Source: Rhodoligotrophos defluvii
GTDB lineage: Bacteria > Pseudomonadota > Alphaproteobacteria > Rhizobiales > Im1
Length of the DNA stretch: 64,000 bases
NCBI RefSeq assembly: GCF_005281615.1
Contig: NZ_SZZM01000002.1
Coordinates: 496,001-560,000, forward strand
Direction of reading: 5' to 3'
The notes beneath the pieces are model-generated. The model was not told where the DNA came from. It did not search any database and was given only the letters and a program-made list of their open reading frames with translations. Shown one piece after another: positions 2,568 to 25,338 of the stretch (positions are counted from its first letter, which is position 1; each line of letters opens with the position of its first letter). The position numbers and the translations under genes are program-made.

Positions 2568-2630
2568 TTGCCGCGGCTACAATCCGACGTTGACTAAGCC
2601 TCGGACTTCGTGGCTGGATGCGCCACGAAA

Positions 2631-4349
2631 ATGCTGAGCGTCCTCAAGATCTTTCTCTCCGCGCGCGGCACCAGGCCCGGCCTCGTATTGTCGTGCCTGT
2701 TGCTCGCCGGCCTCTCCGAAGCCATCAGTTTCGGCACCCTGCTGCCGACCATCTCGCAGATCGGCGGGGGCACGAGCAGCAATAGCTCGACCCTGAACCA
2801 GCTCGTGTCCCACCTGCTGGATGCGGCCGGTATTGCGCCCACGCTCGGCAATCTCGTCACCATCGTTTCGGTCACTCTGATCATCAAGGCCGTGCTCGCC
2901 TTTATCGCCCTGTCCTATGCCGGCATATCGGTGGCCGATGTCTCGGCCAATGTGCGCACCCAGCTCCTTGAACAGCTGATGGCGGCGAAATGGAGCTATT
3001 TCGTCGATCAGCGCGTGGGCCGGATCGCCAATGCGATCAGCAACGACGCCACCCGCTCCGGTGAGGCCTATTTCACCGCGGCCCGTTTCGTCTCCTTCCT
3101 AGCGCAAGGCGTGGTCTACCTGGTGGTGGCCGTACTGATCTCGTGGAAGCTCGCCCTGACCGGAATCGCCGTGGGCGCCATATTGATCGGCTCGCTCAGT
3201 GCACTGGTAAGGCTCTCCCGCCGGGCGGGGCTGAGGCAGACCAACCGCACGTCCGAACTGGTGACCTACGTCTCGGATGCCTTCAACAACATCAAGCCGC
3301 TCAAGAGCATGAACCGCCAGCAGCCCTTTGCGGCGCTGTTCGCGAGCAAGATCCGCAGCCTGCGCAGGGCCCTAGTGAAGAAGGTGCTGGCAAAACAGGG
3401 GCTGACCTATGGCGAGGAAGTGCTGATCGCGATCATGCTCGGCGCCAGCGTCTATGTCGCCGCCGATCTCTGGGCGGTACCGCTGCCCGAACTGGTTGTC
3501 ATGGGCATCCTGTTCTACCAGGTGGTCTCGATCACAGGGAAGATTCAGCAGAACTACCAGACGGCTGTCGAGCTGGAGAGCGCCTATTGGCGCGTGAAGG
3601 AACTGATCGACGAGACCGCGGCCCACCGCGAGCCGGACCGCGGCACCAAGCTGCCGGCCCTCAGGCAGGGTGTCGTGTTTGAGAACGTCTCCTTCGCCTA
3701 TCGCGACCGGCCGGTCACCAAGCACGTCGATCTGACCATACCGGCGGGCGAGATTACGGTTCTGCAGGGCCCGTCGGGCGCGGGCAAGACCACCCTCATC
3801 GACCTGCTCATCGGCCTTTATGAGCCGCAGGAAGGCCGCATCCTGGTCGACGGTGTGCCGCTCTCCGAGGTGAAGCTGTCCGCCTGGCGCAGCATGATCG
3901 GCTATGTCCCGCAGGAAATCAGCCTGTTACATGGCACGATCGCCGACAATATCAGCCTGGGAGACCCGGCGATCTCCCGTGAGAAGATTATCGCGGCTCT
4001 CGCCAAGGCAGGGGCTCGCGAGTTCGTCGACGAGTTGCCGGACGGCATCGACACCGTGGTCGGCGAGCGCGGAACCAGGCTGTCGGGCGGCCAGCGCCAG
4101 CGCATTGCGCTTGCGCGCGCCCTGGTCATAGACCCCAAGCTCCTGATCCTGGACGAGGTCACCAGCGCCCTCGATCCGGAGACCGAGCTTGAGATATGCC
4201 GAAACATCGGAGAACTGGGCGGCGCCTATACCATCGTGGCGATCACCCATCGCCCGGCATGGACATCGATCGCCACCAGGCTCTATCAAGTGGCGGCGGG
4301 CCAGGTCGCCCCGATCGAGACGGAAAAGAACGCGCCGATGCCCGCCTGA
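2631..4349 (+). CDS. MsbA-like ABC exporter (fused permease and ATPase)
   Basis: 572 residues from the ATG at 2631; a GTG at 2610 is an alternative. The N-terminal ~320 residues hold the six-helix ABC exporter membrane domain. The ATPase domain follows, with Walker A GPSGAGKT at about 380-387, Q-loop near 428, signature LSGGQ at 484-488, Walker B LLILDE at 504-509 and a switch His near 534. Half-transporters of this type work as homodimers in the inner membrane and commonly flip lipids or lipid-linked sugars. Its place just before the ceramide synthase candidate suggests a sphingolipid flippase. The neighbours do not fix the substrate, and peptide or glycan export remains possible. Confidence 0.85.
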   Translation: MLSVLKIFLSARGTRPGLVLSCLLLAGLSEAISFGTLLPTISQIGGGTSSNSSTLNQLVSHLLDAAGIAPTLGNLVTIVSVTLIIKAVLAFIALSYAGISVADVSANVRTQLLEQLMAAKWSYFVDQRVGRIANAISNDATRSGEAYFTAARFVSFLAQGVVYLVVAVLISWKLALTGIAVGAILIGSLSALVRLSRRAGLRQTNRTSELVTYVSDAFNNIKPLKSMNRQQPFAALFASKIRSLRRALVKKVLAKQGLTYGEEVLIAIMLGASVYVAADLWAVPLPELVVMGILFYQVVSITGKIQQNYQTAVELESAYWRVKELIDETAAHREPDRGTKLPALRQGVVFENVSFAYRDRPVTKHVDLTIPAGEITVLQGPSGAGKTTLIDLLIGLYEPQEGRILVDGVPLSEVKLSAWRSMIGYVPQEISLLHGTIADNISLGDPAISREKIIAALAKAGAREFVDELPDGIDTVVGERGTRLSGGQRQRIALARALVIDPKLLILDEVTSALDPETELEICRNIGELGGAYTIVAITHRPAWTSIATRLYQVAAGQVAPIETEKNAPMPA

Positions 4350-4383: not shown

Positions 4384-5511
4384 ATGATCGAGATCCGTAC
4401 CGTCGCAGATCCACGCGATCTCGACCAGTTCATCGAGGTGCCTCGGCTGATCCAGGGCAACGACCCCTGTTGGATCGCACCCCTCGCCCTCGAGCGGCGG
4501 GAAGTGCTGAGCCCCGGCAAGAATCCCTATTTTGAGCACGCGGAGGCAAGCCTCTTCCTCGCCCTGCGCGAGGGCATGGCCGTGGGGCGCATCTCCGCCC
4601 AGGTCGACCGGCTGCACCGCGAGCGTTATGCCGCAAATACCGGCCAGTTCGGCTTCATCGAGGCCGTGGATGACCCCGCTGTGTTCGCCGCGCTGTTCGC
4701 CGCGGCCGAGGCCTGGCTCAAGGCGCGTGACACCGAGCTGGTGCAAGGCCCGTTCAGCTTTTCCGTCAACGAGGAGACCGGGCTGCTGATCGACGGCTTC
4801 CAGACACCGCCACGCGTGATGATGGGGCACAACCCGCCCTACTATGCCAGCCAGATCGAGGCGTTCGGCTACCGCAAGGCCAAGGACGTCATCGCCTATG
4901 ACTATGACGCCCGGCTGCCCATGCCGCGCTCGATGGAGCTTTTGCTCGACAAGGCGCGGAAATCCGGCGATCTGCAAGTGCGGCCCCTCTCAAAGAAGCG
5001 GCTGTTCCAGGACCTGGACACCATCATCGACATCTTCAACGATGCGTGGCGGGACAATTGGGGCTTCGTGCCCATGACCGCCGCCGAGATCCGCCACCTC
5101 GGCAACCAGTTGCGTTTCTTGGTGAGGGAGGGCTATGTGGCCATCGCCGAATATCAGGGCGTGCCGGCCGCCATGGCCGTCAGCCTGCCGGACGTCAATA
5201 TCTGGCTCAAAGGGCTCGACGGAAGGCTGCTGCCCTTCGGCTGGGCCCGGCTTGCCTGGCGCGCGCTGCGCCGTCCCGAAGCGGTGCGCATGCCGCTGAT
5301 GGGGGTGCGCAAGGCCTATCAGTCGACCGCCATCGGCTCTGCCCTTGCCCTCGCGGTCATCGACGCGGTGCGCCGCTATCACACCAGCCGGGGCACCTGC
5401 CGGGCCGAGCTGTCCTGGATCCTGGAGGACAACGTCGCCATGCGGCGGATGATCGAGCTGCTCGGCGCCAAGCCTTACAAGACCTACCGCATCTATGAAC
5501 GCAACCTCTGA
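4384..5511 (+). CDS. cerS: GNAT-fold acyltransferase, candidate bacterial ceramide synthase
   Basis: 375 residues from the ATG at 4384, which follows the ABC exporter by 34 bp. It has a GNAT-like layout: an N-terminal segment naming a bound ligand pocket (VQGPFSFSVNEETG near 119-132) and a second half with the IYERNL ending typical of this family. As I recall, Caulobacter bacterial ceramide synthase (CCNA_01212) belongs to this GNAT-like family, often misannotated as a dATP pyrophosphohydrolase, and transfers an acyl group onto the long-chain base. The same neighbourhood (spt, acp, cerR, acyl ligase about 10 kb away) makes that the best call. It overlaps the next gene by 17 bp, indicating translational coupling. 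Acyl-donor specificity is unknown. Confidence 0.7.
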   Translation: MIEIRTVADPRDLDQFIEVPRLIQGNDPCWIAPLALERREVLSPGKNPYFEHAEASLFLALREGMAVGRISAQVDRLHRERYAANTGQFGFIEAVDDPAVFAALFAAAEAWLKARDTELVQGPFSFSVNEETGLLIDGFQTPPRVMMGHNPPYYASQIEAFGYRKAKDVIAYDYDARLPMPRSMELLLDKARKSGDLQVRPLSKKRLFQDLDTIIDIFNDAWRDNWGFVPMTAAEIRHLGNQLRFLVREGYVAIAEYQGVPAAMAVSLPDVNIWLKGLDGRLLPFGWARLAWRALRRPEAVRMPLMGVRKAYQSTAIGSALALAVIDAVRRYHTSRGTCRAELSWILEDNVAMRRMIELLGAKPYKTYRIYERNL

Positions 5512-6313
5512 GCCCCGCGCCGCCGCCAAATACGAAGTGCTGGTGCTGGCCGCCGGCCGCGGACCCGATGACCCCATGGCCAAGGCCTTCGGCGTCAGCC
5601 ACAAATGCGCCATTCCGGTAGGCGGCGTGCCCATGCTCGTACGGGTGCTGAACGCGCTGCGAAGCTGCTCGCAGCTTGGGCCCGTCACCGTCTCCGTCGA
5701 CCGGCCCGAGATTGCGCAAGCGCTCGCAGCTGAGGCAGGAGCTGAGATTCGCATTACTCCCTCCAGCCGCAGTGCGCCGGCCTCGGTGATCGATACCATC
5801 AGCCGGCGAGCGGTAGGCCTGCCGCTGCTGGTGACCACGGCCGATCATCCCTTGCTCGATCAGGCAATGCTCGATCACTTCGTCGAGGCGTCCGCCAGCT
5901 CCGGCGCGGATATCACCGCGGGCCTCGCCACCGCCGAGACCATTCTCGCCGCCTACCCGGCCTCGCAGCGGACATTTCTCGACTTCGCAGGTGACCGCGT
6001 CTCCGGCTGCAACCTCTTCGCGGTGAACACGCAAGCCGGCCTGAAGGCTCTCGCCTTCTGGGACAAGCTGGACCAGCTACGCAAGAAGCCGCTGCGCCTG
6101 GTCGGCGCCTTCGGCGTGAGGCCCCTGCTCCTCTATGGCCTGGGCCGCTTGACCCTTGATCGCGCCTTCGCTGAGGCCTCCCGCCGACTTGGCATCACCG
6201 CGCGGCCGGTGCTCATGCCCTATGCCGAGGCGGCCATAGACGTGGACAAGCCAGCCGACAAGCAGCTGGTCGAGGCAATCCTCTCCAAGCGCGCAAGGCC
6301 CCTGTCGTCCTGA
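5495..6313 (+). CDS. MobA-like NTP transferase domain protein
   Basis: 272 residues. The N-terminus has a nucleotidyltransferase signature (VLVLAAGRG near 16-24, then KCAIPVGGVPML), a sugar-phosphate or alcohol-phosphate binding core, and a TTADHPLL segment near 112-119 where relatives keep the metal-binding Asp. Such enzymes join an NTP to a phosphorylated sugar or alcohol, or to a molybdopterin. The start overlaps the acyltransferase gene by 17 bp, so it belongs to the same transcript. In a sphingolipid locus it could make a CDP- or NDP-activated head-group precursor. The substrate is unassigned, and molybdenum cofactor work is unlikely because no moa/mob genes are near. Confidence 0.65.
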   Translation: MNATSEPRAAAKYEVLVLAAGRGPDDPMAKAFGVSHKCAIPVGGVPMLVRVLNALRSCSQLGPVTVSVDRPEIAQALAAEAGAEIRITPSSRSAPASVIDTISRRAVGLPLLVTTADHPLLDQAMLDHFVEASASSGADITAGLATAETILAAYPASQRTFLDFAGDRVSGCNLFAVNTQAGLKALAFWDKLDQLRKKPLRLVGAFGVRPLLLYGLGRLTLDRAFAEASRRLGITARPVLMPYAEAAIDVDKPADKQLVEAILSKRARPLSS

Positions 6314-6317
6314 GAAC

Positions 6318-7046
6318 CTACCAGGATGCTACCAGCCGCCGGGCATGCTCCAGATCAGCGGGAAAATCGACTTCGCACCATTGCACGTCGGAAACAGGAA
6401 CCGTGCGCACCTCGACCTGTTTAGCGAGCATGCCGATGGCGAAGGGGAACCATTGCTTGAGGGAAGCAGGCTCGCGCATGAGCCGCTCCAGTACCTGGCG
6501 GTACAGCGCCCCGCCATTGCCGCGGAAGATGTAGAAGCCTATCGCCTCCGCGTGCACATGCTCGTTCGGGAGGGTCTTGCCGACATCCACCAGACGGCCG
6601 CCGTCGAGCACCACCTTCATGTCGTCGGCGTCATAGGCACTCTTGTGGTTCACGGCGACGGTGACCGGATGGGCAGGGGCGGAAAGCAGGCGTTCCACCA
6701 TGTCGGCGGCGAACACGTTGTCGCCGTTCACCTGGATGAAGTCTCCATCCATCTCGGCCCGGGCCATCCAACAGCTGGCCAGATTGTCGGCAACGGAATA
6801 GAAAGGGTTGTAGACCGTCCTGATCGAAACCGAGAGGCTCGCGGCGATTTCGTTGAGAGCCTGTTCCATCTTCGCGACAGCATAGCCGGTAATGACGACG
6901 AACTCTCTGACGCCGCATGAGACGAAGGCCTCGATCTGCCTGGCAATCAGACGCTTGCCGCCGATGTCGAGCAGCGCCTTCGGAATGTCCTCGGTGAGCG
7001 GCAGTAGCCGGCTGCCCTGGCCCGCGCCAAGGATGAGAACTTTCAC
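6318..7046 (-). CDS. Sugar/alcohol-phosphate nucleotidyltransferase
   Basis: 242 residues from a GTG at 7046, chosen because AGAAAGG lies just upstream and the catalytic signature then begins within five residues. ILGAGQGSRLLPLTEDIPKALL is intact at about 4-25, and VNGDNVF carries the metal-binding Asp. Relatives include inositol-1-phosphate and phosphocholine cytidylyltransferases, which build CDP-alcohols. The gene is the only minus-strand member inside the plus-strand arm, with its end 4 bp from the neighbouring nucleotidyltransferase stop and its start divergent from the metallophosphoesterase. It probably supplies an activated head group for the CDP-alcohol phosphotransferase at 11049. 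Cytidylyl rather than thymidylyl or guanylyl transfer is inferred from context. Confidence 0.7.
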   Translation of the reverse strand: MKVLILGAGQGSRLLPLTEDIPKALLDIGGKRLIARQIEAFVSCGVREFVVITGYAVAKMEQALNEIAASLSVSIRTVYNPFYSVADNLASCWMARAEMDGDFIQVNGDNVFAADMVERLLSAPAHPVTVAVNHKSAYDADDMKVVLDGGRLVDVGKTLPNEHVHAEAIGFYIFRGNGGALYRQVLERLMREPASLKQWFPFAIGMLAKQVEVRTVPVSDVQWCEVDFPADLEHARRLVASW

Positions 7047-7142: not shown

Positions 7143-8099
7143 ATGTTCACCCTGGCGCACTTGTCCGACCCGCATCTCGCACCCTTGAAGGCCCCGCGCC
7201 TCAAGGACCTCGCCACGAAGCGCTTCTACGGACACCAGTCCTGGATCAGGCGCCGCCGCTTCATTCACCGCCGCGAGGTGCTCGATGCGATGATGGAGGA
7301 CATCAGGCGCGCCCAAGTGGATCACGTGGCCGTGACGGGAGACCTGGTGAATATCTCCACCCGGTCGGAATTCAGGGCGGCCGCCCAATGGCTGGCAAGC
7401 CTCGGCACGCCCGACCACGTTACCATCGTGCCGGGCAACCACGATGCCTATGTGCCGGTTCGCTGGGAGAAGGGCCTCGGGCTGTGGCAGGACTATTTCA
7501 CCGGAGACCTGTCGCTCGGCAAGCAGCAGATCGACAATGCGCCGTTTCCTTTTATCAGAACCCGGCGTAACGTGGCGCTCATCGGGCTTTCGACGGCGGT
7601 GCCCACCCCGATGCTGGTCGCTTCGGGCATGCTGGGTGCCCGCCAGATCCACAGGCTGGCCGAAATCCTGCCCATGCTCAAGGAACGCGGCTTCTTCCGC
7701 GTGGTGCTGATCCATCATCCGCCGCTGCCCGGCATGAACTCGCCCCGCAAGGCCCTGGAGGACGCCGCCGCCCTGCGCGACGTCCTGGAGCGGGAGGGCG
7801 CCGAGCTCGTGCTGCATGGCCATAATCACGAGCATTCCTTGCGCCAGGTATTCTCGCGGACCGGACCCGTCCAGGTGGTGGGCGTGCCATCGGCTTCGGC
7901 GCTGGGCCGCCATGGCAAGCCACCCGCCGCCTGGTACTGCTATCGCATCAGCCGCGCAAAGGGCCAATGGCAGTGCGGTGTCACGGTGCGCAGCTTCGAT
8001 GAGGCGAGCGGCCGCTTCCACGAGACCGAGAGTTTCCGCCTGGACATGAACCCTGCGGCCGAGCAGCCCCGCGATCCGGTGCTGCTTCCGGTCAGCTGA
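7143..8099 (+). CDS. Calcineurin-like metallophosphoesterase
   Basis: 318 residues carrying the whole metallophosphoesterase set in order: LSDPHL near 8-13, GDLVN near 61-65, GNHD near 99-102, HHPP and GHNH near the C-terminal third. These bind two metal ions and cut phosphate mono- or diesters. The fold covers phosphatases for lipids, nucleotides and proteins. No signal peptide is visible, so it should be cytosolic or peripheral. It starts divergent (96 bp) from the nucleotidyltransferase gene and lies upstream of the HIT and LptF/LptG genes. By analogy with phosphatidylglycerophosphate phosphatase it could remove a phosphate after head-group transfer; that is inference only. Confidence 0.85.
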   Translation: MFTLAHLSDPHLAPLKAPRLKDLATKRFYGHQSWIRRRRFIHRREVLDAMMEDIRRAQVDHVAVTGDLVNISTRSEFRAAAQWLASLGTPDHVTIVPGNHDAYVPVRWEKGLGLWQDYFTGDLSLGKQQIDNAPFPFIRTRRNVALIGLSTAVPTPMLVASGMLGARQIHRLAEILPMLKERGFFRVVLIHHPPLPGMNSPRKALEDAAALRDVLEREGAELVLHGHNHEHSLRQVFSRTGPVQVVGVPSASALGRHGKPPAAWYCYRISRAKGQWQCGVTVRSFDEASGRFHETESFRLDMNPAAEQPRDPVLLPVS

Positions 8100-8198: not shown

Positions 8199-8633
8199 GT
8201 GAACGCGACGATCATCAAATTCGGTTTCCCAGACACCCTGATCAAGGAATATGAGCACTGGTGCGTTTTGCTGCGCCCGGCGCAGGCGACCCTTGGCGCG
8301 TTGGTTCTAGCCCGCAAAGGCGAGGAGACGGCCTTCGGCGCCCTGCCTCCGCCGGCCTATGCCGAGCTCGGCATAGCCACGCGCGACATCGAGGCAAGCC
8401 TCAAGGCCTTCCGCCCCTATGACCGGATCAACTACCTCATGCTGATGATGGTTGACCCTCACGTGCATTTTCACGTGTTGCCGCGCTACCAGGCGCCTCA
8501 GAGTTTCGAAGGCGTCAGCTTTGCCGACAAGGGCTGGCCCGCGGTGCCGGATCTCGGTGCGGCGGTCACGCCGCATGCCGCGCTGCGCAACAAGCTGGTC
8601 GACGCGCTCAAGGCTTGTTGGGCAGAGCACTAA
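8199..8633 (+). CDS. HIT-family hydrolase/transferase
   Basis: 144 residues starting at GTG 8199; an upstream ATG runs into a stop. HVHFHVLPR near 88-96 is the histidine-triad motif (His-x-His-x-His with flanking hydrophobics) that handles nucleotide phosphates. HIT enzymes hydrolyse or transfer nucleoside monophosphates from dinucleotides, adenylylated or CDP-linked substrates. The gene sits between the metallophosphoesterase (99 bp) and lptF (42 bp), probably in one transcript. A link to nucleotide-activated lipid intermediates is possible from position, but HIT proteins are too general to assign a substrate. Confidence 0.8.
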   Translation: MNATIIKFGFPDTLIKEYEHWCVLLRPAQATLGALVLARKGEETAFGALPPPAYAELGIATRDIEASLKAFRPYDRINYLMLMMVDPHVHFHVLPRYQAPQSFEGVSFADKGWPAVPDLGAAVTPHAALRNKLVDALKACWAEH

Positions 8634-8675: not shown

Positions 8676-9899
8676 ATGGATGCAGCGCATATGTTCATCG
8701 GCTCGCGATATATATTGCGCCAGATTTCGGGCCCCTTGATCGGCGCCATGGCGATCGGGCTCATGGTGCTGCTCGCCGAGCGATTGGTGCGGCTGCTCGA
8801 TTTCACCCTGGGGAAGAAGAATTCCTTCGCCATCGTGTTCGAGATGCTGGCCTACCTTGTGCCCCACTATCTCGGGCTGGCGGTGCCCGCCGCCCTCTTT
8901 CTCGGCCTCTTGTTCGGCTTCAACAAGCTGTCGCGCAACAGCGAGCTCGATGCTTTCCTGGCCGCGGGCATCGGCCTGCACCAACTGGTGCGCCCCGTGG
9001 TAATCCTTGCGGTCGGCCTGATGCTTGCCTCGCTCGTGATTTTCGGCTGGGCTCAGCCACATGCCCGCTATGCCTATCGCGCGGTATTGTTCTCGGTGAA
9101 GAATGTCGATGTCTTCTACCTGGCCGAGGAAGGCGTCTTCATGCAGGCGGGCCAGCGCACCTTCATCCTCGACAAGCTGGAGCGCGGCACCCGCAAGTTC
9201 GAGCGCATCTTCCTGTTCGAGGACCTGGGCGCGCGCGGCAGCGAAACCATAACGGCCCAGAGCGGACAGCTGGTCGATGTGCCGGGCGAGGTGCGCCCGG
9301 TGCTCCGCCTCGAGCAGGGCCACCGTCTGCGCGTCGAGGGCTGGCCGGACCGCAACCCGGCGGACCCCACCCCACGGCAGGTGGTCGGAAAATTCTCAGT
9401 GGGCGAGACGCCGCTCGGCAGCGCGGCTGAGCACCTTTTCCGCAGCCGCGGCGAAGACGAGCGTGAGCTTACCCTTCCGGAGCTGATCGATCCGGCAACG
9501 GCAGTGCCTTCGGGAACAACCCCCGCCCGGATGCGGGCCGAGCTCCACAAGCGCCTGGTGAACATCCTGTCGATTCCGGTGCTGACCTTTCTTGCGGTGC
9601 CTTTCGCCCTGGGCCGCCGGCGCGGCATGCGCGCCTATCGCTTCGGCGTGGCCCTCATCATCCTCATCGCCTATCACGAGATCATCGAGCAGGGCGCCGT
9701 CATCGTGCAGGTCGGCCGGGCATCGCCTTACCTGACCCTGTGGCTGCCTTTCGCTCTGTTGACCGTGTTCGCCGGCTATCGCTATTACCGCGCCTGCTTC
9801 ACCGTGCCGTCCGAATGGCTCGAGCCTTTCGTCGACCGCTTCGCAGACTGGATCCGCAACCGGTTGAGGCGCGCAAAGCCTGCCGCGGAGCGCAGCTGA
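8676..9899 (+). CDS. lptF: LptF-type lipid export permease
   Basis: 407 residues (start at 8676, with an in-frame ATG at 8691). Six membrane segments in the YjgP/YjgQ pattern flank a periplasmic beta-jellyroll-like domain at about 125-265. The C-terminal half has the typical RLVNILSIPVLTFLAVPFALG segment. LptF pairs with LptG and the ATPase LptB to lift lipids from the inner membrane onto the LptC/A bridge. It overlaps the LptG gene by a TGATG junction. The canonical neighbours of LPS export (lptD, surA) are absent here and sphingolipid genes flank it, so this pair may export sphingolipid rather than LPS. LPS export cannot be excluded without a count of lptFG copies. Confidence 0.75.
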   Translation: MDAAHMFIGSRYILRQISGPLIGAMAIGLMVLLAERLVRLLDFTLGKKNSFAIVFEMLAYLVPHYLGLAVPAALFLGLLFGFNKLSRNSELDAFLAAGIGLHQLVRPVVILAVGLMLASLVIFGWAQPHARYAYRAVLFSVKNVDVFYLAEEGVFMQAGQRTFILDKLERGTRKFERIFLFEDLGARGSETITAQSGQLVDVPGEVRPVLRLEQGHRLRVEGWPDRNPADPTPRQVVGKFSVGETPLGSAAEHLFRSRGEDERELTLPELIDPATAVPSGTTPARMRAELHKRLVNILSIPVLTFLAVPFALGRRRGMRAYRFGVALIILIAYHEIIEQGAVIVQVGRASPYLTLWLPFALLTVFAGYRYYRACFTVPSEWLEPFVDRFADWIRNRLRRAKPAAERS

Positions 9900-10972
9900 T
9901 GGGCACCCTCGCCAGGATGCTCACGCGGATGTTCACGGTCAGGTTCGCCATGATCCTGATCGGCGTGTCCCTCTTCGTCGTGACGCTCGACGTCATCACT
10001 TACGTGAATGACATTCTGGCCCTCAAAGGCGCGACCGCCTGGGCTGTGCCCTATTATGGGCTGCTGCGCCTGCCCACCATCATGTCGAGCTTCATTGGCA
10101 TCTCCGCCCTTCTGGCCGCTCTGCTGCTGCTCACTGAGATCAGTAACTCCAATGAGCTGGTGGCGGTCTGGGGTACGGGTGTGTCGCAGCTGCGGCTGAT
10201 CGGCATGCTCACGCCGATCGCGCTGATCATCGGCGCCCTCAGCTTCGGCCTCAACAATTATGCCATCCCCATGGCGGCTCCGACCCTGCACGCCTGGGGC
10301 ATCGGCGACTATGGCGAGAAGAAGCTGAAGGTCGGCGAGGGCGATCCGATCTGGATGCGCTCGGGCAACGACATTCTCCGGGCCGGAACCAGCAACCCGC
10401 AGGCCACGGTCCTGCGCGACGTCATCATCTTCCGCCGTGACGCCAAGGGCATCCTGCAGGAACAGATCATGGCCGGCAGCGCCGAACTGGTGGACGGGCG
10501 GTGGGAGCTGCGCGACGTCACCATGTATTATCAGGAGGATTTGCCGCCCAACCGGCTCGACCGCATGATCTATAGCGGCCTCATGCGGCCGGCGGCAGCA
10601 GGCTCCCGCTCCGGCGATCCTGAGGAGATGTCGGCCCGCGACCTCGAATATTTCATCGAGAATGCCGGCTTCGGCATCAGGCCCACCCAAGTCTACGAGA
10701 CCTGGCTGATGAAACGGATGACCGGCATCGTCACGGCCCTGCTGATGATCGCCATCGCCGTGCCCCTTTCCGTCCGTTTCAAGCGCGGCGGCGGGTTGGG
10801 CGCAATGTTCGCCATCGGGGTTGGCCTCGGTTTCGCCTTCTTCATCGTCGATGGACTGGCCGTCACGCTCGGCGAGCTCGGCATGGTGCCCCCCTGGATG
10901 GCTGCATGGATGCCGCCCTTGATCTTTGCCACCCTCGCCGGCGTGATGATCAGTCGGGCCGAAGCGCTGTGA
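9899..10972 (+). CDS. lptG: LptG-type lipid export permease
   Basis: 357 residues from the ATG at 9899, which overlaps the LptF stop (TGATG). An open frame reaches further upstream but lies inside lptF. Three N-terminal helices, a periplasmic domain at about 120-250 and three C-terminal helices fit LptG; LMKRMTGIVTALLMIAIAVPL is the conserved fifth-helix region. It should form a heterodimer with the preceding LptF and take energy from LptB, which is not encoded in this window. The next gene, the CDP-alcohol phosphotransferase, begins 76 bp downstream on the same strand, so lipid synthesis and export appear co-transcribed. Confidence 0.75.
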   Translation: MGTLARMLTRMFTVRFAMILIGVSLFVVTLDVITYVNDILALKGATAWAVPYYGLLRLPTIMSSFIGISALLAALLLLTEISNSNELVAVWGTGVSQLRLIGMLTPIALIIGALSFGLNNYAIPMAAPTLHAWGIGDYGEKKLKVGEGDPIWMRSGNDILRAGTSNPQATVLRDVIIFRRDAKGILQEQIMAGSAELVDGRWELRDVTMYYQEDLPPNRLDRMIYSGLMRPAAAGSRSGDPEEMSARDLEYFIENAGFGIRPTQVYETWLMKRMTGIVTALLMIAIAVPLSVRFKRGGGLGAMFAIGVGLGFAFFIVDGLAVTLGELGMVPPWMAAWMPPLIFATLAGVMISRAEAL

Positions 10973-11048: not shown

Positions 11049-12311
11049 ATGAGCGTTTCCGCATCCGTCCCGGCGCAAAATCAGGGCAATACGGTCTCAT
11101 CATCGGCCCACAGCCGCGATGCGGTAGCGAAGGCCAGTGATAGCGCCCGATCCGCAGCTGGCCCGGTGCTGTGCCTGCTGGGTGCGAGCGATGTGGCCCT
11201 GTTCGGCCTCACCCCGGCGGCGAGGCTTATCCGGCAGTTCGGCCGCGCCGGCATCACCCGGGTGATCACGGCCGATGATCTCGCCACCCATTCGGGGCCG
11301 GTCATTGCCGTACGCGCCGATGCGGCCATCGACCAGCCGCTGGTCCAATATCTGGCCGAGCATCCCGATTTCATACTCACCCAGGATCCCGAGAGGATGC
11401 GGCCGCTTGCGGTTCATCTCACCCACGGCGATGCCGCAGCCGTCGAGCAGGCGCTGGAGAGCACGAGCGAGCCGGCCGCTTCACCCACCGGGATCCGGCG
11501 CGGCGCTCCGGCCGACCTTGATGTCACGTTCTGGTCTGCCCTGCGCAAGCGCGAGGTGCCCTATGCATTGACCGTGAGCCGGTCCAACGCGCGCGCGGTC
11601 GAGTGGCGCATGTTCATGGGAACCTACAAAGGCGCCACCGACATCGTCACCAAGCACCTCTGGCCGGTGCCTGCGTTCTGGGTCACACGCTGGATCGCCC
11701 CGCTTGGGGTCACGCCGAACATGATCACCACCCTCGGCGCGGCCATGGTGGTCGCGGCATTCTTCCTGTTCCTCGAGGGGCACTTCGCGCTGGGCCTTGC
11801 CGCCGCATGGATGATGACCTTCCTCGACACGGTGGACGGCAAGCTCGCCAGGGTCACGCTGACCTCCAGCAAGTGGGGCGACATTTTCGACCACGGGATC
11901 GACCTCGTCCACCCGCCCTTCTGGTACATTGCCTGGGGCCTTGGGCTTGGTGCTGCCGGGCTGCCGCTCGCCGATGGCGTGCTGCTGTGGACCTTGGTTC
12001 TGATTTTCGGCGGCTATGTCCTGCAGCGGATCATGGAAGGCATCGCCATAAAGGCGCTGGGCCTCGAGATCCATATCTGGCGGCCCATCGACACCTTGTT
12101 CCGCCAGGTGACCGCCCGCCGCAACCCCAACCTCGTCATCCTCACCGCTTCGGTCCTGGTGGGCCGGCCCGACCTGGGCCTGCTGGCGGTTGCCGCTTGG
12201 ACCATCATCTGCCTCGTCCTGCACGGTATCCAGCTGGCGCAGGCCCTACTGGCGGCCCGCCGCGACGGCCCGCTCGTCTCCTGGATGCGCAAGCCGGTCA
12301 CCTCGCCATGA
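11049..12311 (+). CDS. CDP-alcohol phosphatidyltransferase with degenerate N-terminal nucleotidyltransferase-like domain
   Basis: 420 residues. The C-terminal half (about 195-410) is a multi-helix membrane domain with the CDP-alcohol phosphotransferase signature DTVDGKLAR, followed by GDIFDHGID (spaced Asp residues that hold the metal). The first ~150 residues look like the remains of an NTP-transferase domain, as in the fused inositol-phosphate cytidylyltransferase/DIPP synthases, but the glycine-rich NTP loop is missing. The enzyme would swap CMP between a CDP-activated lipid or alcohol and its partner. It follows LptG by 76 bp and overlaps the kinase gene by 4 bp (ATGA). Its probable role is head-group attachment to ceramide; the alcohol is unknown. 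Confidence 0.8.
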   Translation: MSVSASVPAQNQGNTVSSSAHSRDAVAKASDSARSAAGPVLCLLGASDVALFGLTPAARLIRQFGRAGITRVITADDLATHSGPVIAVRADAAIDQPLVQYLAEHPDFILTQDPERMRPLAVHLTHGDAAAVEQALESTSEPAASPTGIRRGAPADLDVTFWSALRKREVPYALTVSRSNARAVEWRMFMGTYKGATDIVTKHLWPVPAFWVTRWIAPLGVTPNMITTLGAAMVVAAFFLFLEGHFALGLAAAWMMTFLDTVDGKLARVTLTSSKWGDIFDHGIDLVHPPFWYIAWGLGLGAAGLPLADGVLLWTLVLIFGGYVLQRIMEGIAIKALGLEIHIWRPIDTLFRQVTARRNPNLVILTASVLVGRPDLGLLAVAAWTIICLVLHGIQLAQALLAARRDGPLVSWMRKPVTSP

Positions 12312-13276
12312 CCGTGGGCCTGATCGTCAACCCTGCTTCGGCTCGCGGCTCTGGCAAGGGATTGGCGCTGGCCCACGAATTGGCCGGCTATCGGCAAGTC
12401 CAGGTTCGCGTTCTCGACCGCTTTGCCATGCTCCCCGACGTGCTGAAGGACATGGCCGCGGCCGGCGTCGACACCCTGTTCATCAGTTCGGGCGACGGCA
12501 CCGTCCAGGCGATCCAGACGCTGTTGGGTGAGCAGTCGCCCTTTCCAAAGCTGCCGAGGCTCGCCCTCCTTCCGCACGGCACCACCAACATGAATGCGGA
12601 CGATGTCGGCTTCCGTATCCGCGGCATCAGGCAGATCGCCGAGATGATGCTTGTGCCCGACCGCCTGGCCCGGGCCACCGCAGTGAAACGGCGCTGCACA
12701 TTGCGGGCCGCCAATCCCGCCAATTGCGGCCCCCAGCACGGCATGTTCCTTGGCGCGGGCGCCCTCGCGGAAGCCGCGCGCCAAACCCAGAGCCAGCTCA
12801 ATGGCCGCGGCATTGGCGGGCAGATCGCCCCGGCCATGACGCTGTTGCGGGCCATTTCCAGGTTCCTGCTCTCCGCGCCTGCCCCGGACGACCTCACTCG
12901 CATCGATCGCGCTTACCCCATGGATGTGTTCGCGGATGGCACGCTCCAGGCATCCGGCGACCAGCTGCTGTTGCTGGTCACCACACTCGACCGCCTGGTC
13001 CTCCGGTCCCGCCCGTTCTGGGGAACAGGCGTCGCACCCCTGCGCGGCACCGCGATCTGCTATCCACCGCCGCCACTTTTGCGGAACATCATGCCGATCA
13101 TGTATGCGAAGAAGGAGGATGCCGTTCCGCCGCCCGGCTGTGTGAGCTTCACGGCGAACCTGGTCGAGCTCGAGCATTCCGGTATCTTCCTCATCGACGG
13201 CGAGTTCTTCGAAGCGCCGACGGAGGGGCCGTTGCGGATAGAGACCGGCATCGAGCTCGAATATGTCTGTGGGTAG
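12308..13276 (+). CDS. Diacylglycerol kinase-type lipid kinase, candidate ceramide kinase
   Basis: 322 residues from the ATG at 12308, which overlaps the upstream stop (ATGA). The DAG-kinase catalytic motifs are present: VNPAS near 7-11, SSGDGTVQ near 59-66 for ATP binding, and LPHGTTNMNA near 87-96. The second beta-sandwich domain ends with SGIFLIDGEFF near 289-299. The family phosphorylates lipid hydroxyls. In the sphingolipid locus the likely substrate is ceramide; I recall a Caulobacter ceramide kinase, CpgB, of this family encoded in its own sphingolipid locus. Its product would feed the Tam41-like enzyme encoded next (14-bp overlap). Diacylglycerol or the long-chain base are alternative substrates. 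Confidence 0.75.
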   Translation: MTVGLIVNPASARGSGKGLALAHELAGYRQVQVRVLDRFAMLPDVLKDMAAAGVDTLFISSGDGTVQAIQTLLGEQSPFPKLPRLALLPHGTTNMNADDVGFRIRGIRQIAEMMLVPDRLARATAVKRRCTLRAANPANCGPQHGMFLGAGALAEAARQTQSQLNGRGIGGQIAPAMTLLRAISRFLLSAPAPDDLTRIDRAYPMDVFADGTLQASGDQLLLLVTTLDRLVLRSRPFWGTGVAPLRGTAICYPPPPLLRNIMPIMYAKKEDAVPPPGCVSFTANLVELEHSGIFLIDGEFFEAPTEGPLRIETGIELEYVCG

Positions 13277-14192
13277 GGCACGGGTGCACGCGACCAGCCA
13301 TAGCAGCCTGCGCAATCTCGTGGCGACGCGACTCAGCCGTCCGGTGCCGGAGCCGATCGCGGCCTTGGCCGAAACCGCGCGCTCCCGCCACGGAGAGGGC
13401 GTGCTCGCAGTCCTCGCCTATGGCTCGTGCCTGCGCGGCATCGACCCGCGCGAGACCTTGGCCGACCTCTACGTGCTGACGGAGACCACCCGGGACGTGA
13501 GCCGCAATCCGCTCAGCCGGCTCGGCTGCCGGCTGCTGCCCCCCAATGTCTATTACCTCGAGACCGCCTTGGGGACGGAACGCTTCCGCGCGAAATATGC
13601 GGCCATGCCGCTCGGCCTGTTCGAGGCCTGGGTCGCGCCCTCCACGGATAATCCCTATTTCTGGGCCCGCTTTGCCCAGCCCTGTGCCCTGGTCTGGGTG
13701 CGCGATCAGGCAGTCCGCGACCGTATCACCGATGCTGTCGTTCAAGCTGTCAGCACCATGGTTGGCGAAGCCAGGCTGCTTGCTGCCGTCAGCACGGACA
13801 ATCCGGTCGTGTCGTGGCAGGATGCGTTCCGCGAGACCTACCGGACGGAGCTGCGTCCCGAGCCTGGTGACCGCGGCACCGCGATCATTGCCGCCGATGA
13901 GGAATGGTACCGCATGGCAAGCCTGCTTGCGCCGGCCACGGCTCCGATGAGGCAGATGCCAGCCGATACTGCCAGGCGCTGGGCGCGTCGCCGGGCGCGC
14001 GGCAAGCTTCTGGCAGGCTTGCGGCTGGCCAAGGCCGCATTCACGTTCCAGGGCGGTGCGGATTATCTGGCCTGGAAAATCGAGCGGCATTCCAAGGTGA
14101 AGGTCGATCTCACCGAGTGGCAGCGCCGCCATCCACTGCTTGCCGCCCTCAGCCTCATGCCGCGCCTCTACCGCCGGGGTGGCTTCCGCTAA
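13263..14192 (+). CDS. Tam41/Mmp37-like phosphatidate cytidylyltransferase-type protein
   Basis: 309 residues. YGSCLRG near 55-61 followed by ADLYVLTE near 68-75 is the polymerase-beta-like nucleotidyltransferase core as in Tam41 (YGSG, then an acidic residue on the next strand). LPPNVYYLE and the C-terminal KAAFTFQGGADYLAWKIERH region also suit that family. Tam41 transfers CMP from CTP onto phosphatidic acid, making CDP-diacylglycerol at a membrane surface. After the kinase gene (14-bp overlap) the natural guess is CTP plus ceramide 1-phosphate to CDP-ceramide. It is the last plus-strand gene, and its stop abuts the stop of serine palmitoyltransferase on the other strand. The family call is from motif order, not alignment. 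Confidence 0.6.
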   Translation: MSVGRARVHATSHSSLRNLVATRLSRPVPEPIAALAETARSRHGEGVLAVLAYGSCLRGIDPRETLADLYVLTETTRDVSRNPLSRLGCRLLPPNVYYLETALGTERFRAKYAAMPLGLFEAWVAPSTDNPYFWARFAQPCALVWVRDQAVRDRITDAVVQAVSTMVGEARLLAAVSTDNPVVSWQDAFRETYRTELRPEPGDRGTAIIAADEEWYRMASLLAPATAPMRQMPADTARRWARRRARGKLLAGLRLAKAAFTFQGGADYLAWKIERHSKVKVDLTEWQRRHPLLAALSLMPRLYRRGGFR

Positions 14193-15416
14193 TCACTCCC
14201 CCGCAACCGCTAGCCGCGGCTGCGCCACCACGTCCCGGAACACGGCCACGATCCTGTCGATGTCCTCCTCCGTATGCGCTGCGGAGACGGAGCATCGCAG
14301 CAGGCAGGCCTTGCCCGGCGTGCCCGGCGGCAAGGCGATATTCACATAGACGCCCGCCCGCAGCAGGCTGTGCCACATGGCGATTGTCGAGGGCTCGTCG
14401 GGACCACGGACGGCAATGACCGGGCTCGGCACGGGGCAGCCCAGCTCGAGGCCCAGATCGCGGAAGCTCTCGTGCAGCCGCGCCGCGTTGCGCCTGAGCC
14501 GCTCGCGCCGCTCCGGTTCCGCAGCAAGCTTGCGCACCGCCTCGGTGGCGGTTGCGACGCTCGATGGGGATGATGAAGCCGTGAACATATAGGGCCGCGA
14601 CGCATAGCGGATCACGTCGAACATCGGGTGGTCGCCTGCCCCGAAGCCACCGATCGCGCCGATGCTCTTCGAGAATGTGCCGACCACGAAATCGACCTCG
14701 CTCTCCAGCCCCGTCTCTTCCTGCAACCCACGACCGTTCTCGCCGAGCACGCCGAAGGAATGGGCTTCATCCACCATCAGCGCAAAGCCGTGGCGCCGCT
14801 TCACCTCCACGAAGTCGGCAAGGGGCGCCCGGTCGCCGAGCATGGAGTAGATGCCTTCCAGCACCACCAGCCGGCCACCCTTCTCCTCGCCGGAATTGGC
14901 GAGGCGCGTCAGCCGCCGGTCCAGGTCCTCCGCGTCATTGTGCCGGAAGCGCACCAGTCGCGCCCCCGACAGGGTGCAGCCGTCATAGATCGAGGAATGG
15001 CTGTCAGCGTCGAGAAACACCGTGTCGTTCGGCCCGGCCAAGCCGGCGATCATGCCGAGATTGGCCTGATAGCCCGTTGTGAACGCAATGCAATGCTTGC
15101 GCTTGAGGAAGCGGGCCAGTTCCTGTTCCAGCTCCCGGTGAATGCCATAGCTGCCATTGGCGATGCGTGAGCCGGTCGTGCCGGTGCCATAGGCGTCCAG
15201 GGCCTGCTTGCCGGCTTCGATGCAGTCCGGGTCGAAAGTGATGCCCATATAATTGTTGGTGCCGGCCAGGATGGTCTCGCGCCCGCCGATGACGGCGCGC
15301 GTCGGCGAAAGCATGCGCTCCATCACCAACCCCACCGCGTTGTCGCCGCCGGTCATGGCCATCATTTGCCGGTGCCTGCCGGCAATATCCCGGTACTTGT
15401 CGAACAGATCGCTCAT
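14193..15416 (-). CDS. spt: Serine palmitoyltransferase
   Basis: 407 residues of the alpha-oxoamine synthase family. His140 (DADSH) stacks on PLP, VDEAHSFG at 215-222 holds the cofactor, and Lys250 in GTFSKSIGAIGG is the Schiff-base lysine. GTGTTGSRIANGSYGIH near 77-93 and the SRPYMFTAS segment match serine palmitoyltransferase better than BioF or KBL. The reaction condenses L-serine with an acyl thioester to 3-keto long-chain base, in the cytosol or at the membrane. Its start overlaps the acyl carrier protein stop by 4 bp (ATGA), so acyl-ACP is a likely donor. The order ligase, dehydrogenase, ACP, SPT matches the Caulobacter arrangement as I remember it. Confidence 0.9.
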   Translation of the reverse strand: MSDLFDKYRDIAGRHRQMMAMTGGDNAVGLVMERMLSPTRAVIGGRETILAGTNNYMGITFDPDCIEAGKQALDAYGTGTTGSRIANGSYGIHRELEQELARFLKRKHCIAFTTGYQANLGMIAGLAGPNDTVFLDADSHSSIYDGCTLSGARLVRFRHNDAEDLDRRLTRLANSGEEKGGRLVVLEGIYSMLGDRAPLADFVEVKRRHGFALMVDEAHSFGVLGENGRGLQEETGLESEVDFVVGTFSKSIGAIGGFGAGDHPMFDVIRYASRPYMFTASSSPSSVATATEAVRKLAAEPERRERLRRNAARLHESFRDLGLELGCPVPSPVIAVRGPDEPSTIAMWHSLLRAGVYVNIALPPGTPGKACLLRCSVSAAHTEEDIDRIVAVFRDVVAQPRLAVAGE

Positions 15417-15673
15417 GCGGAGCCGCCCCGCTCTATTCGCTCGCGCACAACCTGGGTGAGTTCGTCCATGGTGCGGATCTCCGCCAAGAGGTTGAGGGGA
15501 ATGTCGATGTCGAAGCGGTCCTCGATTTCCATGACGAAATCCATCACCGCAACCGAGTCGATATTGAGGTCGGCGGCGATGTCCGTCGCCGGAGTGATCG
15601 GAACGCCCTTGATGTTGAAGGGCGCGATCAGCCGGCTGAGCTCCTCGAAGATCTGCTCCTTGCTTTCGACCAT
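15413..15673 (-). CDS. Acyl carrier protein for sphingolipid synthesis
   Basis: 86 residues from the ATG at 15673; a longer open frame upstream has no ACP character. The four-helix ACP core is visible, with Ser40 in LNIDSVAVMDF as the phosphopantetheine site (DSV in place of the housekeeping DSL). Helix II after it is acidic (EIEDRFDIDI). It overlaps serine palmitoyltransferase by 4 bp and follows the dehydrogenase by 43 bp. The role is probably to carry the acyl chain loaded by the ligase at 16977 and hand it to SPT; that order of events is inferred from gene order. Confidence 0.85.
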   Translation of the reverse strand: MVESKEQIFEELSRLIAPFNIKGVPITPATDIAADLNIDSVAVMDFVMEIEDRFDIDIPLNLLAEIRTMDELTQVVRERIERGGSA

Positions 15674-15716: not shown

Positions 15717-16751
15717 CTAGGCCGCCGCCTGCGACAACCAGCCGGCCTGCCTGTACCAGCCGAGCGTCTCCGCAAACCCTTGCGCGAACGGCACCTGTGG
15801 CCGCCACCGCGAGAGCTCCTGAAGCAGATTGTTCCGGCAGACCCAGTCCCGGTGATAGAGCTCCGCAACCTTGCCGGCATTCAGCATCGGCGGCCCGCCC
15901 GCCACCCTCGACCATATCTCGCAGCCCCAGGCCGCCGCCGCCATAGCCGTCCGGGGAATGAACACGCAGCCGCCCGCTCCGCGACCATTGGCCACCCCTT
16001 TGAGCTCGCGCCAGCTGTATCCGCCCGGCTTGCCGTCGTCGATCTCGCAGGCCACCCGCTCGACCGTAGCATCCGCCAGCACATGGTCGATGGCGGAAAT
16101 CACGTCGCGCACGTGGATCAGCGAAACTTTCGCCTCCGGATGGCCGGGAATCAGCGACCGGCGTCGAGAGAGCTGGTCCACCAGCGGCAACGTCGCGCGG
16201 TCGCCCGGCCCGTAGATGGCCGGTGGCCGCAGCGCCAGCCAGGACATGCCGCCGGCTAGCTCCGCCACCGCCTCCTCGCCCCCGCGCTTGCTCCAGGCAT
16301 AATCCGACAGCGCCGGCTCCCGCGCCGCCAGTGATGACATGAGCACCAGCCGCCGCACCCCCGCCTCGGCCGCCGCGCGTGTCAGCCGGACGGTGCCCTC
16401 GATGTTCACCCGCGCGAAGGCATCGCGATCACGGCCCGCCAGCAATCCGGCGCAGTGGATCAAGCCGGCGGCCCCATCGCATAGCCGCGCCACCGCCGCT
16501 GCATCGGTCAGGTCGCCGGTAACGAATGACATGTTATGCGAGCCGGCTTCCGCCAAACCCGGCACGGACACCATCAGCCGCCGGGGATCCCGTAAAAGCA
16601 GCCGTAAGCTATACCCGCGACGCAGCAGATGTGGCACCAAATGGCCGCCGACAAAACCGCTGCCGCCGGTGATGGCGACAACTCCGGCGCCGTCCGCCCC
16701 TGGCCGACGAACCGCAGCGTCTTCCGACGTCCTCTGTCCTCGTTCGAGCAT
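15717..16751 (-). CDS. cerR: NAD(P)-dependent epimerase/dehydratase-family reductase (CerR type)
   Basis: 344 residues. An extended SDR Rossmann fold begins after ~25 extra residues: GGSGFVGG at 29-36 binds NAD(P), and Tyr150 and Lys154 in YAWSK form the catalytic pair. In Caulobacter, a protein of this family at the same place in the gene order acts in the keto-reduction step of sphingolipid synthesis (as I recall it, on the oxidised ceramide). The gene lies between the ligase (225 bp upstream, with two palindromes in the gap) and the ACP gene (43 bp). A sugar-nucleotide epimerase is the alternative, but the neighbours argue for lipid reduction. Confidence 0.75.
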   Translation of the reverse strand: MLERGQRTSEDAAVRRPGADGAGVVAITGGSGFVGGHLVPHLLRRGYSLRLLLRDPRRLMVSVPGLAEAGSHNMSFVTGDLTDAAAVARLCDGAAGLIHCAGLLAGRDRDAFARVNIEGTVRLTRAAAEAGVRRLVLMSSLAAREPALSDYAWSKRGGEEAVAELAGGMSWLALRPPAIYGPGDRATLPLVDQLSRRRSLIPGHPEAKVSLIHVRDVISAIDHVLADATVERVACEIDDGKPGGYSWRELKGVANGRGAGGCVFIPRTAMAAAAWGCEIWSRVAGGPPMLNAGKVAELYHRDWVCRNNLLQELSRWRPQVPFAQGFAETLGWYRQAGWLSQAAA

Positions 16752-16976: not shown

Positions 16977-18839
<1,863 letters not shown>

Positions 18840-22076: not shown

Positions 22077-23855
22077 CTAGCCCTTGGGCAGGTTCAGCCG
22101 GATATGCAGCTCCCGCAGCTGCTGGGGCGTGACGTCCGAGGGTGCGCCCATGAGCAAGTCTTCCGCCTTTTGGTTCATGGGGAACACAACCACCTCGCGC
22201 AGGTTCTCTTCCCCGCACAGCAGCATCACCATGCGGTCGAGGCCGGGCGCAATGCCACCATGGGGCGGGGCGCCATATTGCAGGGCGCGCAACATGCCGC
22301 CGAACTTGGATTCAAGCACGCTCTGGTCATAGCCGGCGATCTCGAACGCCCTGCGCATGATCTCGGGCTTGTGATTCCGGATCGCGCCGGACGAAAGCTC
22401 GACCCCGTTGCATACCACGTCATACTGAAAGGCGTTGATGCTCAGCGGATCTTTGCTGTTCAGCGCCTCGAGCCCGCCTTGCGGCATCGAGAACGGATTG
22501 TGCGAGAAGTCGATGCGCTTTTCCTCCTCGTTCCACTCGAACATGGGGAAATCGACGATCCAGCAAAAGGCGAACTGATCGAGCTCCACGAGGTTGAGCT
22601 CCCGCCCGATCTTGTTGCGGGCCGCCGCCGCAAAACTCGTGAACACCTTCGGCTTGCCCGCCACGAAAAACGCGGCATCCCCAACCCCAAGCCCGAGCTG
22701 GGTCCTGATCGCCTCGGCCCGCTCCAGTCCGATGTTCTTGGCGACCGGCCCGGCGCCGCCCTCCTCGCCCTCGCGCCAGAAGATATAGCCGAGGCCGGGC
22801 TGCCCCTCGCTCTGCGCCCAGGCATTCATGCGGTCGCAAAAGGCGCGGGCGCCGCCGCCCTTCGCCGGGATCGCCCAAACCTCGACCGTCGGATCGCTGG
22901 CGATCATGTTGGCAAAGACCTTGAAGCCAGACCCAGCGAACTGCTCGGTGACCGCCTCCATCACGATGGGATTGCGCAGATCAGGTTTGTCCGAGCCGTA
23001 TTTCCGCATCGCCTCGGCATAAGGAATGCGAGGGAAAGTCTGGGTCACCGGCTTGCCTTCCCCGAAGGCGACGAACAAATCGCGCAGCACAGGCTCCACC
23101 GCCTGGAACACGTCCTCCTGGGTGACGAAGCTCATCTCGATGTCGAGCTGATAGAACTCGCCGGGCGAGCGGTCCGCGCGCGCATCCTCGTCGCGAAAGC
23201 ACGGTGCGATCTGGAAATAGCGGTCGAAGCCGGCGATCATCAAAAGCTGCTTGAACTGCTGCGGCGCCTGCGGCAGCGCGTAGAACTTGCCGGGATGCAG
23301 CCGCGAGGGCACCAGGAAGTCGCGTGCGCCTTCCGGGCTCGAAGCCGTGAGAATGGGCGTCTGGAACTCGGTGAACCCGTCTTCGATCATACGCCGTCGT
23401 AGCCAGGAGATGATCTGGCTCCGCTTGACGATGTTCCGGTGCAGGCGCTCGCGGCGCAAGTCGAGGAAGCGGTATTTCAGCCGCGTCTCCTCCGGGTACT
23501 CCGCATCGCCAAACACCGGCAGGGGCAGTTCGGCCGCCGCCGAAAGCACCTCGATCTCGGTTGCGAACACCTCGATTTGGCCGGTGGCGATGGCCGGGTT
23601 CTTCGTGTCGCCCGGCCGCTCGCGCACGAGGCCGTCCACGCGGACCACCCATTCCGCGCGCAGCTCTTCAGCCCGGGAAAACGCCGGCGAATCGGGATCG
23701 ACCACGATCTGCGTGATGCCGTAATGGTCACGAAGGTCGATGAACAGAAGCCCGCCGTGGTCGCGCACCCTGTGCACCCAGCCGGACAGCCTTGTCCGAG
23801 CGCCGATGTCGCTTTCGCGGAGCGCGCCGCAGGTATGGGTTCTATACTGGTGCAT
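22077..23855 (-). CDS. aspS: Aspartyl-tRNA synthetase
   Basis: 592 residues from the ATG at 23855; a TTG five codons earlier is also in frame. N-terminal OB-fold for anticodon binding ([20 protein letters not shown] near 26-45), class II motif 2 ([19 protein letters not shown] near 214-232), bacterial GAD insertion, and motif 3 ([13 protein letters not shown] near 525-537). It charges tRNA-Asp in the cytosol. Alphaproteobacteria commonly use a non-discriminating version that also charges tRNA-Asn; I cannot tell from the sequence alone. It is a single gene divergent from rnd (188 bp). Confidence 0.97.
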
Positions 23856-25236: not shown

Positions 25237-25280
25237 GCATTTTCGAGCGAAGTGGATACCGGTTCGCATGAAGAAAATGC
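25237..25280. repeat. Palindromic repeat of a second Rhizobiales-like family
   Basis: Inverted arms GCATTTTC at 25237-25244 and GAAAATGC at 25273-25280 surround a centre with AGTGGATACCGGTT, a relative of the GTGGGTACCGGTTTTCGG core of the 16815 elements. It begins two bases after the rnd stop codon. A further GC-rich segment (AGAGCGGTTCCGCGATTCG) follows to about 25330 and may belong to the same mosaic element. It could also serve as the transcript end for rnd or for the converging AbrB-type gene. Confidence 0.75.
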
Positions 25281-25338
25281 GACCAGGCAAAGACTTAGAG
25301 CGGTTCCGCGATTCGAAGAACAGCGGAAGCGCGCTAGC

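Follow-up and report, generated by a model that had tools for sequence, protein, structure and literature searches.

A sphingolipid-type LptF/LptG pair, probably a sphingolipid exporter, in a Rhodoligotrophos genome without LpxC and LpxB matches

The adjacent lptF and lptG genes in the sphingolipid (SL) locus of Rhodoligotrophos defluvii very likely export sphingolipids, because key LPS genes are missing from the genome, the sole copy of the pair lies among SL genes and its sequences fall on a separate branch. We propose with good confidence that the pair is the SL-type permease of an Lpt machine which exports an anionic sphingolipid, probably ceramide phosphoglycerate-like, to the outer membrane of a bacterium without ordinary lipid A. 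The observations behind this proposal are the sequence families, the sole copy, the lack of LpxC and LpxB matches, the presence of LptB, LptC, LptA and LptD, the split of the LptFG clades and the co-occurrence across genomes. Throughout, SL-type denotes a pair of the sphingolipid-locus clade and lptD-type a pair of the lptD-linked clade, and positions are those of the window, the whole 64-kb stretch of DNA that was analysed.

Results

The lptF/lptG pair

The SL-type (LptF2-like) permease gene lptF (8676..9899, + strand) encodes 407 aa and the SL-type (LptG2-like) permease gene lptG (9899..10972, + strand) encodes 357 aa, with the stop of the former and the start of the latter shared in a TGATG overlap at 9897-9901, as the earlier note had read it. 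In a Pfam profile search, PF03739 (LptF_LptG) matched over its full profile in both proteins (8676-9896, E=1.8e-66; 9899-10969, E=2.1e-57), and the scores of 225.1 bits for LptF and 195.2 bits for LptG against a gathering score of 27.9 place both in the family. AlphaFold2 models built from 20 SL-type sequences reached a mean pLDDT of 87.5 for LptF and 84.9 for LptG, and both consist of three long helices, six strands and three long helices, the six-helix transmembrane part and periplasmic jellyroll of the family. The top Foldseek matches of both models were solved LptF and LptG chains, 6mit_F for LptF (E=3.1e-16, TM 0.56 by query length) and 6mjp_G for LptG (E=7.9e-18, TM 0.78 by query length). 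The cut-offs of the NCBIfam LPS-export equivalogs TIGR04407 and TIGR04408 were missed, with 210.7 against 230 and 222.0 against 240, respectively. These cut-offs are an unclean divider, as two other genomes gave 4 SL-type proteins of which 2 pass, and 1 of 6 lptD-type proteins from three genomes fails; NCBIfam LptF/LptG scores were rejected as a separator.

The sphingolipid locus around the pair

Upstream of the pair, the + strand carries an MsbA-like ABC exporter (2610..4349; ABC_membrane and ABC_tran), a candidate ceramide/sphingolipid flippase which scores 257 bits against TIGR02203 MsbA, under the cut-off of 602, and has tblastn matches in the SL loci of many relatives. It is followed by a GNAT-like protein (4384..5511, + strand; weak PF00583, 20.5 bits against 20.7), a candidate ceramide synthase CerS whose gene recurs next to SL-type lptFG in relatives, a MobA-like NTP transferase (5495..6313, + strand; PF12804 E=3.8e-15), a candidate CpgD-like cytidylyltransferase, and another NTP transferase on the - strand (6318..7046; PF00483 E=3.4e-12; the listed open frame extends to 7121). 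A calcineurin-like metallophosphoesterase (7143..8099, + strand; PF00149 E=6.7e-14) lies upstream of lptF, and just upstream of lptF is a 144-aa protein (8199..8633, + strand) without Pfam or NCBIfam match, kept in many relatives by tblastn, which we would guess from its sequence to be a HIT protein. Downstream on the + strand are a CDP-alcohol phosphatidyltransferase (11049..12311; PF01066 E=2.5e-12), a candidate head-group transferase that served as the SL-locus marker in our genome surveys, a DAGK-family lipid kinase (12305..13276; PF00781 E=3.3e-11), a candidate CpgB-like ceramide kinase, and a 309-aa protein (13263..14192) that matches no Pfam or NCBIfam family and is conserved among SL loci. 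The - strand then carries a serine palmitoyltransferase-like PLP enzyme (14193..15416; PF00155 E=3.6e-47; putative spt, by its locus), an acyl carrier protein (acpR-like; 15413..15670; PF00550 E=1.5e-9), a putatively cerR-like NAD-dependent epimerase/dehydratase family reductase (15717..16751; PF01370 E=3.4e-26) and a putatively aasR-like AMP-binding acyl-ACP synthetase-like enzyme (16977..18839; PF00501 E=1.4e-58). In Caulobacter, CpgB is described as a ceramide kinase and CpgD as a nucleotidyltransferase (PMC12275187). The names CerS, CpgB and CpgD are given here from family and from the Caulobacter papers, by description rather than by comparison with Caulobacter sequences.

The earlier placement of the pair between head-group genes was right in substance, with the phosphoesterase and the 144-aa gene upstream and the CDP-alcohol enzyme and the lipid kinase downstream, and the statement that no lptD or surA lies nearby was borne out by tblastn, in which this genome's LptD and SurA had no match anywhere in the window at E<=1. 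This genome's LptC gave a single 22-residue match in the window (E=0.81), and the matches of its LptB were two ABC ATPases. Two short tblastn matches of LptA were also seen, residues 54-86 at 25237-25335 (76% over 33 aa) and residues 50-83 at 22343-22435 (44% over 34 aa).

At the edge of the SL locus, an Asp/Asn beta-hydroxylase family gene (PF05118) is present at 1731-2567 in this genome without LpxC or LpxB match, and PF05118-type genes were also found in the SL loci of several relatives. The lipid A hydroxylase LpxO belongs to the same family, thus the window gene may act on ceramide and hydroxylate it here. A second homologue of the CDP-alcohol phosphatidyltransferase occurs elsewhere in the genome (G000 C1:808611-809726; 40% identity, residues 37-415), with similar second copies in genomes G001 and G002.

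The placement of lptFG recurs in relatives. Among 52 named loci collected by LptF alone, a phosphoesterase lies directly upstream of lptF in 51, a CDP-alcohol enzyme or lipid kinase downstream in 40, and SPT was seen in 30, while LptD, SurA, PdxA and KsgA were found in none of the 52; the four loci that show no SL marker at all are short pieces, 3.0 to 4.9 kb long. By these neighbour counts, the placement of lptFG in the SL locus is no chance event. The named loci with an order in the title come from Hyphomicrobiales or Rhizobiales and include Aestuariivirga, Anderseniella and Thermopetrobacter, which speaks against an initial reading of the genome as that of a sphingomonad. Aestuariivirga litoralis KCTC 52945 (L079) carries an SL-type pair, and Thermopetrobacter sp. 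TC1 and G024, a genome of the same order as R. defluvii, have identical LptFG pairs.

Lpt and lipid A genes in the genome

A single lptFG pair, the one in the SL locus, was found in the genome, which is rated 99.86% complete. The lipid A pathway was probed through LpxC (PF03331) and LpxB (PF02684), and the profile search returned no match to either in the genome, thus the pair would not be an ordinary LPS exporter and ordinary lipid A is not expected. The earlier note had named as counter-evidence a pair that is both the only lptFG in the genome and essential for LPS export; it is indeed the sole pair, but the searches for LpxC and LpxB, which found neither, speak against the LPS-export half.

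The remaining parts of the machine (LptB, LptC, LptA and LptD) are present. One site between an exonuclease and RpoN holds LptC, an LptA and an ABC ATPase, which we take for LptB as it adjoins LptA and LptC, and the genome has one match to PF03968 (LptA and the N-terminus of LptD) and one to LptD. LptD is followed by SurA, PdxA and KsgA with no lptFG beside it; on its other side, where lptD-linked relatives carry lptFG, there is a divergent solute-binding-protein ABC transporter, in our reading of the polyamine type. The LptD itself (L046 7816-10251) has no PF03968 N-terminal match at E<=1, and the LptD proteins of six LpxC-positive relatives have weak matches (E 0.0002 to 0.051); since one genome against six is too few, no change in this domain is claimed.

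Two clades of LptFG pairs

The tree proposed in the earlier note set the SL pair in a clade apart from the lptD-linked pairs, both in concatenated trees and in either half, F or G, of a paralogue tree, and neither protein groups with lptD-linked alphaproteobacterial pairs. All trees were quick searches with support by SH-aLRT only, without bootstrap. In the concatenated F+G tree of all 79 pairs, 45 SL-type rows form one side of a branch (support 91) and 30 lptD-type rows another (99), with 4 odd rows outside both types, and 0 of 500 label shuffles were as low. With 11 rows left out (the long or odd rows L213, L211, L218, L233 and L170; the near-copies L066, L179, L175, L157 and L166; and L164, for no good reason), a branch with support 100 sets off 39 SL rows. 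In the paralogue tree of 38 pairs plus E. coli, the SL-type F and G groups (98 and 96) and the lptD-type F and G groups (99 and 99) are each one side of a branch, thus F and G seem to have diverged jointly. The single-gene trees are in part less clean: for LptG the 30 lptD-type rows form one side at 99, with the odd rows among or beside the SL rows, while in the LptF tree, which also takes in seven single LptF/LptG-like genes, the branches around the split have support of 85 to 94, and long rows lie in their vicinity.

A third, distant clade of LptFG-like pairs was also observed (L233, G021 C1:204849-207118; L211, G039 C8:56609-58889; L218, G055 C2:499772-501927). Single LptF-like genes lie on the SL side of the LptF tree (L207, L208 and L209 in G038; L199 in G008 C31), and L199, L207 and L209 have an ABC-exporter-like match nearby.

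Distribution across the order and the class

In the order set, 9 of 41 genomes are without LpxC. A near full-length CDP-alcohol marker was found in 11 of the 41, all nine without LpxC plus G008 and G036, both LpxC-positive and each with both an lptD-linked and an SL-linked pair. Six of the nine have exactly two LptFG matches, and the others have more (G016 4, G038 5, G039 4).

The class set comprised 241 Alphaproteobacteria genomes, each at least 95% complete, of which 31 are without LpxC, 11 of these being assigned by absence from the list of LpxC matches. No LptFG match was found in seven of the 31 (G045, G088, G107, G115, G123, G202 and G246), and the remaining 24 have an SL-linked pair in 21 cases and an lptD-linked pair in three (G082, G085 and G141), where SL-linked means at least one SPT-, AasR-, CerR-, GNAT-, CDP-alcohol- or 13263-type match above 50 bits and no lptD-side match in the stretch. 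For G150 and G221 the only such match is the GNAT-like neighbour, yet the trees put both in the SL clade. The three lptD-linked genomes all keep LpxB, thus they may still make lipid A, or their assemblies may have gaps. LpxC-negative G081 combines an SL pair with a weak match to LpxB (E=1.4e-30). G008 and G058 are LpxC-positive yet without LpxB match, so the search can miss a match. Two of the genomes without LptFG match, G088 and G246 (family code f87; 5.4 and 5.8 Mb), have no LpxC or LpxB match either, although an SL-type pair is present in G178 of the same code.

Genomes without LpxC and LpxB but with an LptFG pair numbered 28, nine from the order set plus a further 19 from the class set. 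Each of them has an SL-clade pair, and in the fetched stretches no copy is linked to lptD, surA, pdxA or ksgA; 24 have exactly two LptFG matches, and extra LptF/LptG-like genes occur in G016, G038, G039 and G221, the last, LpxC-negative with 3 matches, being the sole three-match genome examined. Among the class genomes with the CDP-alcohol marker, all 11 LpxC-negative ones have exactly 2 LptFG matches, and all seven LpxC-positive ones have 4 or 5. Fifteen of the 17 LpxC-positive genomes with four or more matches were fetched (G209 and G227 were left out), and 12 of the 15 carry one lptD-type and one SL-clade pair (G008, G036, G057, G058, G110, G132, G156, G161, G170, G211, G240 and G274), the lptD-type pair of G058, at a contig end, being assigned by tree. 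The second pair of LpxC-positive G222 is SPT-linked but outside both clades, and those of G021 and G055, also LpxC-positive, belong to the third, distant clade. In each of the 12 fetched two-copy LpxC-positive genomes, the pair is linked to lptD, surA, pdxA or ksgA. Both states occur within family code f106, where G108 is LpxC-negative with the SL type only and G191 is LpxC-positive with the lptD type only.

Residues separating the types

The two types were compared at positions in E. coli numbering over 45 SL-type and 28 lptD-type rows. The LptF Q29 position is acidic in 45/45 SL-type rows and T in 22/28 lptD-type rows, and the K30 position is basic in 45/45 and Q in 24/28, respectively. At the LptG K40 and K41 positions, lptD-type rows are basic in 27/28 each, and SL-type rows are basic in 2/45 and 4/45 and acidic in 19/45 and 31/45. 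LptF 29/30 and LptG 40/41 are thus candidate cargo-related positions, with the reservation that any two old clades differ somewhere. In E. coli, LptG K40 is reported as a lateral-gate contact, and K40E/K41E as without effect on growth, and K34 with R136 is reported as important (PMC5548808). K34 was rejected as a separator, being basic in no row and acidic in 42/45 SL-type and 28/28 lptD-type rows; the R136 position is basic in 2/45 SL-type and 0/28 lptD-type rows and acidic in 9/45 and 23/28.

Discussion

The earlier note had suggested a dedicated Lpt-type permease for anionic sphingolipid as a specialised export route. The dedicated permease is supported by the separate clade and the SL locus, with the substrate put forward by inference, but an extra side route does not fit, as the pair is apparently the genome's only Lpt permease. 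We likewise infer the direction of transport, the joining of the pair to the shared LptB/C/A/D and the role of the exporter at 2610-4349 as a flippase. In the route we propose, ceramide would be made and phosphorylated at the inner membrane before the head group is added, and the MsbA-like exporter would flip the lipid. LptB2, from the lptC-lptA-lptB-rpoN site, would power the SL-type LptFG, which would extract the lipid and pass it through LptC and LptA to LptD, and the SL-type pair alone would have survived the loss of lipid A and of the LPS-type pair.

That an ordinary LPS exporter moved into the SL locus by happenstance would agree with the LptFG fold and family and with the sole pair in the genome. 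However, the unmatched LpxC and LpxB already make it unlikely, the pair lies in a clade apart from the lptD-linked pairs, and the 12 LpxC-positive genomes with an SL-type pair keep both kinds, thus we consider such a relocation very improbable. A somewhat less improbable, though still unlikely, alternative is that SL-type LptFG exports another envelope lipid, such as a hopanoid, a capsule lipid or another glycolipid, and that its position in the locus reflects co-regulation only. The head-group genes do vary between SL loci, and among the 19 class genomes with an SL pair but neither LpxC nor LpxB, 10 show no CDP-alcohol marker at E<=1e-20, thus at least the head group must vary. On the other hand, ceramide-type genes accompany the pair throughout the clade, as far as the examined stretches reach, and a glycosylated sphingolipid cargo would be the same explanation with a different head group.

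The pair might also use a bridge of its own (LptC2 and others), separate from the shared LptB/C/A/D, as the LptC2 reported in the SL region of Caulobacter (PMC11324152) could suggest. By tblastn, the window holds no convincing LptC-like gene, and the genome has a single LptA-type and a single LptD match, which leaves a separate bridge little probability, and a sphingolipid exporter working through the shared components remains our preferred reading.

The closest likeness by description, rather than by sequence, is with Caulobacter crescentus, where LptF2 and LptG2 (CC_1156 and CC_1155) are reported with LptC2 inside the SL region, and orthologues of this region are listed for Sphingomonas wittichii and Zymomonas mobilis (PMC11324152). 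The authors suggest that LptC2/LptF2/LptG2 carry phosphosphingolipid to the outer membrane, so a transport role for the second Caulobacter pair is already in print, while the same paper states that transport was not investigated and that the route of sphingolipids to the outer membrane is not known (PMC11324152). As described, Caulobacter makes LPS and has second versions, whereas the SL-type pair here is the only one and LpxC and LpxB were not found. With the LptB2FG LPS exporters of E. coli, Klebsiella, Acinetobacter and others, our pair shares the fold, the two-gene order and the LptB/C/A/D complement; on the other side, SL-type rows stand apart from lptD-type rows in trees and differ from them at LptF 29/30 and LptG 40/41, and the genome of our pair has no LpxC or LpxB match. 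Lpt orthologues kept without LPS have also been described in Borrelia burgdorferi, for whose LPT-like system a glycolipid cargo was suggested by modelling; this bacterium, however, is a spirochaete, and the abstract names no sphingolipid (PMC10353723).

No account of a class-wide swap of LptFG types, or of its occurrence in this order, was found in our searches of the open-licence literature on sphingolipid and Lpt or on lipid A loss. The broader view, to which we give about an even chance, sees in SL-type LptFG an old exporter dedicated to sphingolipid, which split from the LPS-type as a unit and whose presence allows a lineage to do without lipid A. The lipid A genes would then vanish together with the LPS-type pair and the shared LptB-C-A-D bridge would be re-dedicated to sphingolipid, and this would have happened repeatedly in Alphaproteobacteria, including Hyphomicrobiales outside the sphingomonads. 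A genome with a sole SL-type LptFG and no LpxC or LpxB match turns the second-copy proposal into a clean test, since no LPS-type pair is there to blur the outcome.
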